Below, piece after piece: positions 9,476 to 16,151 of a stretch of DNA of 36,906 nt. The notes under the pieces are model-generated. The model was not told where the DNA came from, did not search any database, and worked only from the letters and a program-made list of their open reading frames with translations. The position numbers and the translations under genes are program-made. How positions within the stretch are numbered: position 1 is the stretch's first letter; every line of letters starts with the position of its first letter. The DNA comes from Verrucomicrobiota bacterium (GTDB lineage: Bacteria > Verrucomicrobiota > Verrucomicrobiia > Opitutales > UBA953): assembly GCA_030831965.1 (NCBI GenBank), contig JAURJZ010000005.1, forward strand, positions 1 to 36,906, read 5' to 3'.

Positions 9476-12360
<2,885 letters not shown>

Positions 12361-13233
12361 TTAAGCCAGGAAATCGGCGGCTTTGTCGACAGCCTCGGGG
12401 CCTCCGTCCTCGAACAGGTAATGGCCGGCGCGGGGCAGGAGAATCTTGGCGGCGCGGGGCCAGCGGAGGGCGAGCTCGTCGGCGAAGCGGGGGGTGAAGC
12501 AGAAGTCGCGCGCGCCCCAGAGGATCAGCGACGGATGCGAGGCGAGGGCGTCGAGGCCGCGCGAGACGGCCTCGAGCGCGGCGCGCGAGGGATGGCCGGG
12601 CTCCATCGGGATGTCGGCCACGAAGTCGGCGACGGCGCGGCGGCGCGCGGCGGCGCCGTAGGGCGCGAGGAAGCCGGCCTTCACGGCGGAGGGAAGGGCG
12701 CGCTCGGTGGACATCCAGGTGGCGGGCCAGGCGAAGCCGTCGAGCTGCTGCACGAGGAATCGGCCCACGGCCGGGGCGCGGCAGAGGGCGATGCGCAGCG
12801 GGATGCGGGGCGAGGGCCAGGCGGCGGTGTTGGTGGCGAGAAGGCGGCGGAAGCGCGCGGGCTGGCGGCCGGCGAGGCCGAGGCCGATGGCGCCGCCCCA
12901 GTCGTGGACGCCGAGGTCGATGTCGCGCAGGCCGAGGGCGTCGACAAGCGAGCCGAGGTGGCGGATGCGGTCGTCGAGCCGGAGGAAGCGGTCGGGGCGG
13001 TCGGAGAGGCCCATCCCGACGTGGTCGGGCACGACGACGCGCCGTCCGCGTCGGGCGAGCTCGGCGGCGAGGTCGCGCCAGAGGAAGCCCCAGGAGGGGT
13101 TGCCGTGGACGAGGAGGACGGGGGCGGCGTCGCGCGGCCCGATATCCGCATAGTGCATGCGGCCGGCGTCGGTCTCGTGCCAGCGGGGCTCGTGCGGCCA
13201 GAGGGCGCGGAGCGGCTCGGGGATGCGGTCCAT
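12361..13233 (-). CDS. oleB: OleB-like alpha/beta hydrolase (haloalkane dehalogenase fold)
   Basis: In the long-chain olefin pathway OleB decarboxylates a beta-lactone to the alkene. The 290-aa protein has the alpha/beta hydrolase core of the haloalkane dehalogenase/OleB group: HGNPSWGFLW (Asn45 in the oxyanion/halide position), nucleophile Asp111 followed by Trp112 in GVHDWGGAIG, Asp243 in WGARDFCF, and His271 in RAGHYLFED. The IPMEPGHPS segment (208-216) is also characteristic. Family membership is clear. The choice of OleB over a true dehalogenase rests on its place 2 bp after oleA, in the same order as known ole operons. oleC and oleD do not follow; gyrB does. The start at ATG 13233 is fixed by the tight junction with oleA (TGAGCATG). 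Confidence 0.78.
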   Translation of the reverse strand: MDRIPEPLRALWPHEPRWHETDAGRMHYADIGPRDAAPVLLVHGNPSWGFLWRDLAAELARRGRRVVVPDHVGMGLSDRPDRFLRLDDRIRHLGSLVDALGLRDIDLGVHDWGGAIGLGLAGRQPARFRRLLATNTAAWPSPRIPLRIALCRAPAVGRFLVQQLDGFAWPATWMSTERALPSAVKAGFLAPYGAAARRRAVADFVADIPMEPGHPSRAALEAVSRGLDALASHPSLILWGARDFCFTPRFADELALRWPRAAKILLPRAGHYLFEDGGPEAVDKAADFLA

Positions 13234-13235
13234 GC

Positions 13236-14273
13236 TCAGAGCGCCTCGGCGGCGAGCATGAGCGAGCTGAGGCCGCTGCCGATGCCGAGCAGGGCGACCT
13301 TGTGGCCGGGGGCCACCCTGCCCTCCTGGCGGGCGAGCGCGAGGGTGGCGGGGAGCGAGACGGAGCCGACGTTGCCGAGGCGGGCGAGGCTGGGGCAGTC
13401 CTTGGCGGGGTCGAGGCCGAGGCGCTCGAAGAGGAGGGCGGCGTGGCGGCGGCCGACCTGGTGGGTGACGACGCGGTCGGGCGTGGCGGCGTCCCAGCCG
13501 GAGGCGGCGCGGAAGCGGTCCCAGCAGGACTCGGCCAGGGCGACGCCGGCGTGGAGGAGGGCCTCGGAGTCGGTGCGCATGTCGAGCTCGGACGAGGCGC
13601 TGTCGCCCTCGCAGAGCCGGTTGGCGGCGGAGTCGGTCGCGGCGGCGGCGGCGAGGAGGCGGAAGCCGCCGGGAGCCGCGAGGTCGTCGCGCGAGAGCAC
13701 GGCGGCGGCGGCGCCGGCGCCGATGGTGAGGTTGGCGAAGTAGGGCTTGATGCCGTCGCGGTCCAGGGAGAGGTCCTCGTTGAGGGTGCGGAGGGTGCGC
13801 TCGAGGAGGGGAAGGCCGTCCTCGCCGGCGCAGAGGAGGGCGCGGCGGATCTGGCCGGACTCGACGAGGCCGGCGGCGAGGACGAGGGCGTTGGCGAAGC
13901 CGAGGCAGGCGTTGGAGATGTCGAGGATCTGGGCCTGGGGGCCGAGGCCGAGGAGGCCGTGGACGTAGGCGGCGGTGGCGGGCTCGAGGCGGTCGCGGCA
14001 GACGGAGCAGTGGACGAGCAGGTCGATGTCGGCCGGCCCCGCGCCGGCGGCGGCCATGGCCTTGCGGCCGGCGGCGGCGGAGGCCTCGGAAGGGCGGATG
14101 GGGGAGGGCCAGAAGCGTCGCTCGCGGATGCCGGTCATCAGCTCGAGGCGCCCCTCGGGCAGGCGGAGGCGGCGGTAGAGGGGCTCGAGGCGGCGCTCGA
14201 TGTCGGCCGAGGTGACGACCTCGGGGGGAAGCTCGGCGACGAGGCCGGAGAGGGCGACGCGGGCGAAGCGCAT
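13236..14273 (-). CDS. oleA: OleA-like thiolase-superfamily condensing enzyme
   Basis: OleA joins two fatty acyl-CoAs head to head to a beta-keto acid. This 345-aa protein aligns along its length with Xanthomonas OleA as I remember it. It has the catalytic Cys123 in DISNACLGF, His271 in THQVGRRH and Asn301 in LGNVGSVSLP. It also has Glu97 in SVCRDRLEPAT, which matches the Glu117 that OleA uses across the dimer (numbering offset 20) and that FabH lacks. The C-terminal LLGIGSGLSS is likewise OleA-like. It could instead be a FabH-type 3-oxoacyl-ACP synthase with a new role, given the fabI and fabZ neighbours. The start ATG overlaps the fabI stop by one base (TGATG). Confidence 0.82.
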   Translation of the reverse strand: MRFARVALSGLVAELPPEVVTSADIERRLEPLYRRLRLPEGRLELMTGIRERRFWPSPIRPSEASAAAGRKAMAAAGAGPADIDLLVHCSVCRDRLEPATAAYVHGLLGLGPQAQILDISNACLGFANALVLAAGLVESGQIRRALLCAGEDGLPLLERTLRTLNEDLSLDRDGIKPYFANLTIGAGAAAAVLSRDDLAAPGGFRLLAAAAATDSAANRLCEGDSASSELDMRTDSEALLHAGVALAESCWDRFRAASGWDAATPDRVVTHQVGRRHAALLFERLGLDPAKDCPSLARLGNVGSVSLPATLALARQEGRVAPGHKVALLGIGSGLSSLMLAAEAL

Positions 14274-15073
14274 CAGCCGAGGCGGGTGGCGGCCTTGACC
14301 ACGGCCTCGTCGAAGTAGTTCCAGCCCATGCCGGCGTCGACCACGATGCCCTGGGCGTTGACGCCGGAGGAGCGGGGCGAGAGGAGCCAGACGGCGGCGT
14401 CGGCCACCTCCTGGGTGGCGAGGGCGCGCCGGCGCAGGGTCAGCTTCTCGGCGAACAGGTAGTTGTCGAGGTAGCCGGGGATGCCGGCGGAGGCGCTGGT
14501 CTTGAGCGGGCCGGCGTTGACGCTGTTGAAGCGCACCTCGGTGTCGGCCGAGAAGGACTTGGCGAGGAAGCGGGAGGCCGACTCGAGGGCGGCCTTGATG
14601 GGGGACATGTAGCCGTAGCTGGCGGCGGTGACCTGGGAGGAGATGCCGATGGAGACGACGGAGGCGTCGCGCCGGAGGTGGGGCTTGAGGGCGCGGGCGA
14701 GCTCGACGAGCGAGAAGGCGGAGACGGCGGTGGCCTGGAGGAAGTCGGCGCGCCCGGTCTCATGGAAGGGGACGAGCCCCTGGGAGTAGTTGGCGAAGGC
14801 GACGCTGTGCAGGACGCCGTCGATCGGCCCGTGCTCGCGGCCGACCGCGGCGGCGAGCGCCTTGGTCTCATCCTCGCGCTCGAGGTCGCAGACAAGCGTC
14901 GGCTTGCCGGCGAGGAGCTTGTCGAGCGAGGCGCGGCGCGCCTCGGAGCGGACGGAGTAGACGACCTTGGCGCCCTCCTGCTCCAAGGTCTGCGCGACGT
15001 GCCAGGCGACCGACTTGCGGTTGGCGACGCCCAGGACGAGGTAGGTGCGGCCGGCGATGCCGAGGAAGGACAT
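14273..15073 (-). CDS. fabI: FabI-like enoyl-[acyl-carrier-protein] reductase (SDR)
   Basis: Would reduce the trans-2 double bond of enoyl-ACP with NAD(P)H, the last step of fatty acid elongation. The 266-aa protein has the divergent SDR cofactor loop GVANRKSVAWHVA (15-27) typical of FabI, HSVAFA (89-94), catalytic Tyr153-x6-Lys160 (YGYMSPIK) and FNSVNAGPLKTSASAGIPGY, like the FabI substrate loop. One feature is odd: the position of the second active-site tyrosine of E. coli FabI (Tyr146) is a glycine here (SIGISSQV), so chemistry or substrate may differ. It is not OleD, which is an extended SDR with Tyr-x3-Lys. It lies 9 bp after the fabZ-like stop, with a pure C tract before ATG, and overlaps oleA by 1 nt. 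Confidence 0.85.
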   Translation of the reverse strand: MSFLGIAGRTYLVLGVANRKSVAWHVAQTLEQEGAKVVYSVRSEARRASLDKLLAGKPTLVCDLEREDETKALAAAVGREHGPIDGVLHSVAFANYSQGLVPFHETGRADFLQATAVSAFSLVELARALKPHLRRDASVVSIGISSQVTAASYGYMSPIKAALESASRFLAKSFSADTEVRFNSVNAGPLKTSASAGIPGYLDNYLFAEKLTLRRRALATQEVADAAVWLLSPRSSGVNAQGIVVDAGMGWNYFDEAVVKAATRLG

Positions 15074-15082
15074 GGGGGGATT

Positions 15083-15523
15083 TCAGGCGGATTTCGGGAT
15101 GAGGGCGAGCGCGTAGCGGAGCGTCAGCACCGCCTTGCCGTCCTTGCGGACCGTCCCGGCCATGAAATGGAACTGCTGGAGGGTCTCGGTGGGCCGGGCC
15201 TCGATGGTCACGCGGTCGCCGGGCAGCACCATGCCCTTGAACTTGGCCTCCTCGATCCGGCAGAGCACGGGGGTGCTGTCGGCCGCCGAGCCGCCCTGGG
15301 ACTTAAGCCGGTGGGTCAGGAAGACGGCGCCGGCCTGGAAGACGGCCTCGCAGAGGAGGACCCCCGGTGTGAGGGGATTGCCCGGATAATGGCCGGCGTA
15401 GAAGGGCTCGTCGGCCCGGAAGGTCCGGGCGCAGAGCGCATGCTGGTCGTCAAGCTCCAGGACCTCGTCGATGAACAGGAAAGGGGGGCGGTGGGGAATG
15501 AGGTCCGAAGGCCGGGGAAGCAT
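15083..15523 (-). CDS. fabZ: FabZ-like 3-hydroxyacyl-ACP dehydratase (hotdog fold)
   Basis: Expected to dehydrate 3-hydroxyacyl-ACP to the trans-2 enoyl-ACP that the adjacent reductase uses. The 146-aa protein has the standard FabZ size and hallmarks: IPHRPPFLFIDEV at the N-terminus, then GHYPGNPLTPGVLLCEAVFQ with catalytic His45 and Glu59. The frame is open upstream, but ATG 15523 gives the family N-terminus (MLPRPSDLIPHRPP). It is the first gene of a four-gene minus-strand unit (fabZ-fabI-oleA-oleB). In many Gram-negatives fabZ lies between lpxD and lpxA; here lpxD is nearby, but its downstream neighbour is prs. Whether this is the housekeeping FabZ or a pathway-dedicated copy cannot be told. 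Confidence 0.85.
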   Translation of the reverse strand: MLPRPSDLIPHRPPFLFIDEVLELDDQHALCARTFRADEPFYAGHYPGNPLTPGVLLCEAVFQAGAVFLTHRLKSQGGSAADSTPVLCRIEEAKFKGMVLPGDRVTIEARPTETLQQFHFMAGTVRKDGKAVLTLRYALALIPKSA

Positions 15524-15635
15524 GGAGGCATTAAGGCGGCCAAGGGAGGGGGAGGAAAGGGAGTATTCGCCCGGGTCTCCCCTGCCCTCCCGCTTGCCTC
15601 CGGCGCGCTTCCTCTTCCCATGCAGGCACAGTCCC

Positions 15636-16151
15636 ATGCGACTCCCCCTCCTCTCCGCCATGATGCTCTCCCTGTTCTCCGGCCTCGGCTCAGCCGAGGC
15701 CGCCCCCCTCAAGGTCGGCGACCCCATCCCGGCCGTCACGGTTAACGACCAGGACGGCAAGCCGGTGGACGTGGCCGAGGCGGGCGCCAAGGGGCTGCTC
15801 CTCGTCTACTTCTACCCCAAGGCCGACACCCCGGGTTGCACCAAGCAGGGCTGCTCGCTGCGCGACAGCTGGGGCGAGCTGCAGAAGCGCGGCGTGACGG
15901 TGCTCGGGGTGAGCTCCGACGACGAGAAGGGCCAGAAGGCCTTCCGCGAGAAGTACAACCTGCCCTTCCGGCTCCTGGCGGACAAGGAGAAGAAGGTCAT
16001 CGCCGCCTTCCGGGTCGGCTCGACCTTCGGCTTCGCGTCGCGCACCGCCTTCCTCTTCGAGGACGGCAAGTGCGTCTGGATCGACCCCAAGTCCTCGACG
16101 GGCGACCAGGGCGAGGTGGTGCTGAAGTTCCTCGACTCGCGGGGCCGCTAG
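15636..16151 (+). CDS. exported Bcp/PrxQ-type peroxiredoxin
   Basis: Thiol peroxidase that reduces hydroperoxides. The 171-aa protein has a signal peptide (MRLPLLSAMMLSLFSGLGSAEA) and a thioredoxin-fold AhpC/TSA domain. The peroxidatic Cys68 (ADTPGCTKQGC) and resolving Cys73 five residues on are the Bcp/PrxQ signature. LGVSSDDEKGQKAFREKYNLPFRLLAD is typical. The export signal is unusual for Bcp, which is normally cytosolic, and implies a periplasmic role needing an external thiol donor. A longer in-frame reading from 15471 would bury the signal peptide, so ATG 15636 is preferred. It is divergent from the fabZ unit, 112 bp apart. Confidence 0.9.
   Translation: MRLPLLSAMMLSLFSGLGSAEAAPLKVGDPIPAVTVNDQDGKPVDVAEAGAKGLLLVYFYPKADTPGCTKQGCSLRDSWGELQKRGVTVLGVSSDDEKGQKAFREKYNLPFRLLADKEKKVIAAFRVGSTFGFASRTAFLFEDGKCVWIDPKSSTGDQGEVVLKFLDSRGR

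Follow-up and report, generated by a model that had tools for sequence, protein, structure and literature searches.

Separate oleAB and oleCD loci and a second fabZ-fabI pair in a Verrucomicrobiota genome with a predicted head-to-head olefin pathway

Genes for head-to-head olefin (Ole) synthesis have been described in several arrangements. Passages of PMC7064751 place the purified OleA proteins in oleABCD clusters, in clusters with oleBC fusions and in oleACD clusters without oleB; the same passages, from 2020, report OleA homologues in Opitutae. An 'oleABCD operon' in metagenome-assembled genomes of freshwater Opitutae was reported in 2017 in the relevant passages of PMC5673642, and according to an excerpt of PMC6463001, the ole operon of some marine bacteria adjoins a pfa operon, with the Pfa synthase feeding OleA. 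In the survey sections cited here, PMC7158056 required the oleBCD genes to lie within 5 kb of oleA and has Verrucomicrobia in its list, and PMC7064751 required at least two flanking ole genes. Here, we describe a fabZ-fabI-oleA-oleB cassette in a 36,906-nucleotide (nt) stretch of DNA, hereafter the window, from a Verrucomicrobiota bacterium (assembly GCA_030831965.1, contig JAURJZ010000005.1). The oleC and oleD genes of this genome lie on another contig, and members of the order as a rule have oleAB and oleCD at different loci.

Identity of the ole genes

On the basis of its sequence, the condensing enzyme of the cassette is an OleA-type protein, which by its family would perform the Claisen condensation of two acyl thioesters. 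It passes the curated model NF006720 (385.9 bits, cut-off 285), whose title reads 3-oxoacyl-acyl carrier protein (ACP) synthase III and which we take to stand for OleA, and it scores far below the cut-offs of the FabH models. Its best match in the PDB has an E-value of 7e-61, and its top relatives there are 3fk5/3row and their kin, labelled in the database as 3-oxoacyl-ACP synthase III and presumably the OleA of Xanthomonas. A Glu-Pro pair at position 117 of the Xanthomonas protein, together with the Cys/His/Asn residues, is described as an OleA feature in passages of PMC7064751, and the cassette protein has the expected pair as Glu97-Pro98. No substitution of Glu97, Cys123, His271 or Asn301 occurs in any of the 128 aligned rows, of which 118 are distinct. 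In this and the following alignments, rows scoring under 100 bits or shorter than 75% of the query were left out, and each alignment holds 8-10 duplicate rows. The pattern EPxx[AS]x(14,18)DxxNACL, used for OleA according to passages of PMC7158056, was found by eye in the translation as EPATA, 16 residues and DISNACL. The FabH of the same genome carries Phe where OleA carries Glu97. A FabH identity was thus ruled out by the model scores, the PDB relatives, the invariant Glu97 and the Phe of the genome's own FabH. Elsewhere in the order, OleA was found in two pieces in two genomes. In G174, the pieces share a contig with about 110 nt between them (C5:9585-10716), and in G044 they are on contigs C15 and C1; either may reflect a frameshift or an assembly break.

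OleB proteins are hydrolases of the haloalkane-dehalogenase type with an Asp nucleophile and a His. Family searches assigned the protein encoded after oleA to the haloalkane-dehalogenase-related hydrolases, and its Asp111, His271, Asn45 and Trp112 are unchanged across all 108 rows, 100 of them distinct. No OleB model was among its NCBIfam matches, and the dehalogenase models matched below their cut-offs. Since none of the curated models used separates OleB from the dehalogenases, the name OleB rests on context: 77 of the 80 named loci and 31 of the 40 other loci defined below have oleB within 400 nt after oleA. Outside the order, oleB follows oleA in just 2 of 8 sampled loci. We regard this hydrolase as a probable beta-lactone decarboxylase.

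The initial annotation had described four minus-strand genes with gaps of 9, -1 and 2 nt, Glu97 with Cys/His/Asn in OleA, and the nucleophile Asp111 in OleB. The coordinates and the start and stop codons agree with this layout (9 nt between fabZ and fabI, a 1-nt overlap of fabI and oleA, and 2 nt between oleA and oleB), and the named residues are those found invariant above. For the missing oleC and oleD, it had offered two options, namely that they lie elsewhere or that the OleA product is converted to a different lipid. Neither gene was found in the window, and a whole-genome search bore out the first option with an overlapping oleC-oleD pair on contig C48, so that loss of oleCD from the genome is ruled out. 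OleC scored 538.5 bits with NF006754 (cut-off 478); the next-best models are olefin beta-lactone synthetases, among them NF045786 with 464 bits against its own cut-off of 900. The two best models of OleD are 2-alkyl-3-oxoalkanoate reductases (374 bits with NF042422 and 327 bits; cut-offs 580), and the first family other than OleD scores 135 bits. The genome is 98.35% complete and 0.38% contaminated, which makes it unlikely that oleCD was carried in on a foreign contig.

Table 1. Coordinates of the cassette genes, the flanking gene and the separate oleC-oleD pair. Positions without a contig label refer to the window; G000 is the genome of the window.
Feature	Length	Position	Strand	Remark
fabZ	146 aa	15083..15523	minus	start ATG, stop TGA; second, divergent 3-hydroxyacyl-ACP dehydratase
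fabI	266 aa	14273..15073	minus	second, divergent FabI-type enoyl-ACP reductase
oleA	345 aa	13236..14273	minus	predicted head-to-head Claisen condensing enzyme
oleB-like	290 aa	12361..13233	minus	alpha/beta hydrolase; probable beta-lactone decarboxylase
gyrB		9476..12115	minus	neighbour only; named by the initial annotation and from its place before gyrA, not from a family search
oleC		G000:C48:26508-28190		same genome, other contig; start codon uncertain
oleD		G000:C48:25516-26511		overlaps oleC by 4 nt

The oleB stop and the likely gyrB start (ATG at 12115) are 245 nt apart, so gyrB is a neighbour and probably lies outside the cassette unit. Across loci, gyrB is found 3' of oleB in 14 of the 80 named and 4 of the 40 other loci, the latter all from one genus of the same family (g2); this rarity marks it as a local flank and not as a member of the system. 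Between oleB and gyrB, at 12298-12306, there is a perfect DnaA-box-like nonamer, TTATCCACA; it occurs only once as an exact match in the whole window. A divergent gene on the plus strand (15471-16151), peroxiredoxin-like by reading of its translation, overlaps the start region of the cassette. A simple scan of the cassette region for sigma-70-type promoters and terminators returned none, a result that says little for this organism.

Distribution of oleAB and oleCD in the order

We searched 177 genomes of the order, apparently Opitutales according to the names of the relatives (Opitutae, Opitutales, Puniceicoccaceae, Cephaloticoccus). OleA and OleC were called present at E-values of at most 1e-60 and FabI at scores over about 55 bits; the FabI calls take in partial matches in G018 and G047 and leave out a weak short-chain dehydrogenase/reductase (SDR) match in G016. 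Both OleA and OleC are present in 128 genomes, OleA only in 7, OleC only in 9 and neither in 33. One of the 33, G081, gave no match in five order-wide searches, including those for FabZ and FabV, which is probably a data problem; it is also counted among the genomes without FabV. Gene neighbourhoods were compared around 120 oleA matches, consisting of 80 named loci (the best 80 of 582) and 40 other loci; 10 are common to both sets, leaving 110 distinct. Locus L250 (G079) is outside this analysis.

Neither oleC (>200 bits) nor oleD (>150 bits) was found around these 120 oleA matches, 84 of which come with 3 kb or more of sequence on each side. An oleC or oleD gene near oleA in relatives with the same flanks, the observation that the initial annotation had named as counting against its view of the cassette, was therefore not encountered. 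Conversely, no oleA, oleB or fabI (>150 bits) was found around 40 oleC matches, and in 23 of these 40 loci oleD follows oleC within 300 nt. Where oleA and oleC share a contig, in 15 genomes, a distance of 25 kb or more separates them. The order thus keeps oleAB and oleCD apart as a rule. In three genomes of other classes with few contigs, oleA and oleC also lie apart (on one contig at a distance of at least 0.9 Mb in G250 and G356, and on two contigs in G341). In another class of the phylum, at L149:3623-6094, oleA is divergent beside a gene for a FabF-type ketoacyl synthase.

These data point to a complete head-to-head olefin pathway kept in two separate places, a reading to which we assign a probability of roughly 0.78. 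Following the chemistry of the respective families, OleA would join two fatty acyl thioesters to a 2-alkyl-3-keto acid, OleD would reduce this product, OleC would close the beta-lactone, and OleB would strip CO2 from it to leave a long-chain internal olefin.

OleA was found without OleC at the threshold given above in 7 of 135 genomes with OleA (G026, G043, G063, G079, G098, G159 and G167), and these may represent assembly gaps or true oleAB-only members. By estimate, G026 and G079 are at least 95% complete, and in G026 (L122) OleB adjoins OleA. Such genomes could mean that some members of the order have a genuinely minimal system made up of oleAB and lacking oleCD, with OleB acting on a substrate other than a beta-lactone. 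Nevertheless, the seven assemblies consist of about 20-470 contigs, so that gaps are possible, and the genome of the window carries both halves; we consider a minimal system highly improbable.

The second FabZ and FabI

The FabZ and FabI of the cassette are members of their families, yet neither reaches the curated cut-off of any of the FabZ or FabI models listed. FabZ matches PF07977 with 77.5 bits and falls under the cut-offs of NF000582 (96.7 against 113) and TIGR01750 (92.8 against 155). Its His45 and Glu59, numbered from the Met at 15523 (47 and 61 in the alignment), do not vary in any of the 91 rows, 83 of them distinct. FabI matches PF13561 with 186 bits and its best FabI model with 162 bits, against a cut-off of 370; its best PDB relatives are FabI proteins (E-value 2e-37). 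Tyr153 and Lys160, in the arrangement Tyr-x6-Lys, are present in every one of the 107 rows, 99 of them distinct. The column aligned to the Tyr of Staphylococcus aureus FabI that we take to be the first active-site Tyr holds Gly in 90 rows and Ser in 17. The same genome encodes an LpxC-FabZ fusion (NF009667, 524.6 bits, above 465) and a FabV (NF010177, 598.7 bits, above 403). The fabZ and fabI of the cassette are therefore second copies in a genome that also has a standard LpxC-FabZ and FabV, and the dehydratase and enoyl reductase that the initial annotation had placed upstream of oleA are part of the story as second copies that track the ole genes within the order.

Of the 80 named loci, 61 have all four genes in the order fabZ-fabI-oleA-oleB, as do 26 of the 40 other loci, and the arrangement is more than chance. 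FabI and OleA occur together in 129 of the 177 genomes (OleA only, 6; FabI only, 4; neither, 38). The corresponding numbers are 107, 4, 3 and 22 among the 136 genomes at least 90% complete and 57, 2, 0 and 7 among 66 genera. In 94 of the 129 genomes that have both, fabI is the gene immediately upstream of oleA, with a median gap of 23 nt. The loci of cultured relatives show that the linkage varies: in Cerasicoccus maritimus (L189), oleA-oleB has no adjoining fabZ-fabI. Among the named relatives, Cephaloticoccus primus (L225), DG1235 (L222) and IMCC26134 (L244) share the gene layout of the window. For fabI and oleA genes that are not linked, 20 neighbours were scanned with Pfam, and no common partner emerged.

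That the order relies on FabI alone for enoyl reduction was ruled out by the presence of FabV in 164 of 177 genomes; FabK-type matches (E-value at most 1e-20) were found in 5 of 177, none above the cut-off. The 33 genomes without OleA, OleC and FabI belong to the families labelled f17 (13), f7 (9) and f28 (7), to one genus of f5 (1) and one of f8 (2), and to f24 (one genome, 67% complete); the joint absence covers all sampled genomes of f7, f17 and f28. In the five families with small genomes, f7 and f25-f28, 15 of the 17 genomes that have FabI show two matches of the FabA/FabZ type, as against 1 of the 23 that lack it; the second match may be the cassette FabZ.

It is somewhat more probable than an even chance that the second FabZ and FabI would finish acyl chains for OleA (beta-hydroxyacyl to enoyl to acyl), as a branch of fatty acid synthesis for hydrocarbon supply alongside the housekeeping LpxC-FabZ and FabV. 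An analogous case is the Pfa synthase, which supplies OleA in some marine bacteria (PMC6463001). Alternatively, fabZ-fabI could be ordinary backup genes of fatty acid synthesis, giving the cell FabV plus FabI, and merely co-directional with oleAB. Several findings are consistent with such a backup. FabI is better conserved over the order than OleA (identities of 55-82% and 47-79%, respectively, for the listed full-length matches), and it is not directly 5' of oleA in 35 of 129 genomes. It is also retained without an OleA match in G065 (L167), a genome of 1.7 Mb in 6 contigs, 99% complete, that has OleC and the fabZ-fabI pair. Outside the class, FabI may even be the sole enoyl reductase, FabV being found in 0 of 54 genomes, in which FabK was not searched. 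The pattern of absence within the order speaks against a backup role: 28 of the 33 genomes lacking OleA, OleC and FabI retain FabV, so it is FabI and not FabV that is missing along with the ole genes, throughout the samples of f7, f17 and f28 and, within f5 and f8, in a single genus of each. We consider the backup explanation possible, at odds of about one in three, and prefer supply of OleA by the second FabZ and FabI.

Across the phylum (387 genomes, E-value at most 1e-40), FabI was found in 109 genomes and OleA in 110. Outside the order, the numbers are 47 and 49, with 42 shared; one of the 47 FabI matches (G252) is just 36% identical. OleC was found in 39 of 67 genomes searched there. No FabV was found in the 54 genomes outside the order that have FabI or OleA, so FabI may be a housekeeping enzyme there, and both genes may mark the same clades. 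We therefore rejected the phylum-wide co-occurrence of FabI and OleA as independent evidence.

The conserved catalytic residues of FabZ and FabI, the co-direction of fabZ-fabI with oleA in the 61 named loci and the replaced first active-site Tyr of FabI, whose substrate may thus differ, could also be explained by the second option of the initial annotation. The OleA product would remain a thioester that is reduced, dehydrated by FabZ and reduced again by FabI to an alpha-branched long-chain acid. The substrates of FabZ and FabI, however, are thioesters and not a free beta-keto acid. OleA is reported, in passages of PMC7158056, to yield a beta-keto acid that is handed to OleBCD, so an alpha-branched product requires OleA to release a thioester. 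Moreover, OleC and OleD are present in the same genome, an OleB-like protein is encoded beside OleA, and five genomes have OleA and OleC without FabI (G044, G059, G148, G158 and G160). The option is thus unsupported, and we regard it as very unlikely. A mixed scheme is just as doubtful; in it, FabZ and FabI would act on branched thioesters derived from OleA, alpha-branched acids would be made beside olefins, and the split would separate the two product fates.

Several points weigh against a two-locus olefin pathway with its own FabZ-FabI supply. The OleD matches, and the match of OleC to the Xanthomonas OleC model, fall under the strict cut-offs of these models, the curated models leave OleB and the haloalkane dehalogenases together, and oleD lies within 4 kb downstream of oleC in just 25 of 40 loci. 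The 35 genomes in which fabI is not directly 5' of oleA include all six sampled genomes of one genus (g3) of the same family, and some of the 35 may be due to contig ends. Six genomes, five of them in family f26, have OleA without FabI, which implies that FabI is not indispensable, and G065 shows the reverse, FabI with OleC but no OleA. Outside the order, FabI and OleA co-occur unlinked and without FabV. Finally, all genome counts are raw and ignore kinship, and joint losses were tallied by family and genus labels.

Comparison with known systems

That freshwater Opitutae carry ole genes was already known; the split layout with fabZ-fabI appears new within the literature searched, in which no description of it was found (a 2010 survey was outside that search) and no paper jointly mentioned FabV, FabI and Opitut- names. 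Since none of the oleA genes examined has oleC or oleD beside it, even though 128 of the 135 genomes with OleA do have OleC, split loci can be missed or mis-described by surveys based on proximity, such as those set out in the cited sections of PMC7158056 and PMC7064751. In an order in which FabV is nearly universal, the FabZ-FabI pair is a testable partner of the ole genes. This second pair, which tracks them, would tie the provision of fatty acids to the making of membrane hydrocarbons in aquatic bacteria.

Compared with FabI enoyl-ACP reductases, the cassette enzyme is a FabI-type SDR by sequence search and retains the Tyr-x6-Lys arrangement; it differs in its scores below the cut-offs of all models listed, in the Gly or Ser in place of the first Tyr, and in its coexistence with FabV. 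With the pfa-ole arrangement of marine gammaproteobacteria, as outlined in the excerpt of PMC6463001, it shares the principle that genes for making acyl chains can adjoin ole genes. There, the partner is a multidomain Pfa synthase, whereas here it is a dehydratase and an enoyl reductase with a putative supply role. The lineage and pathway are those of the 'oleABCD operon' of Opitutae in the passages of PMC5673642; unlike that single operon, oleC and oleD lie elsewhere in every locus examined here, and fabZ-fabI accompany oleAB. Finally, the proteins resemble those of the oleABCD systems of Xanthomonas, Shewanella and Micrococcus in the Glu-Pro, Cys, His and Asn of OleA, in an OleB-like hydrolase of the haloalkane-dehalogenase kind, and in OleC and OleD as judged from family models. 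The arrangement differs from these systems in its division into two units, oleAB and oleCD, and in the fabZ-fabI pair that precedes oleA.

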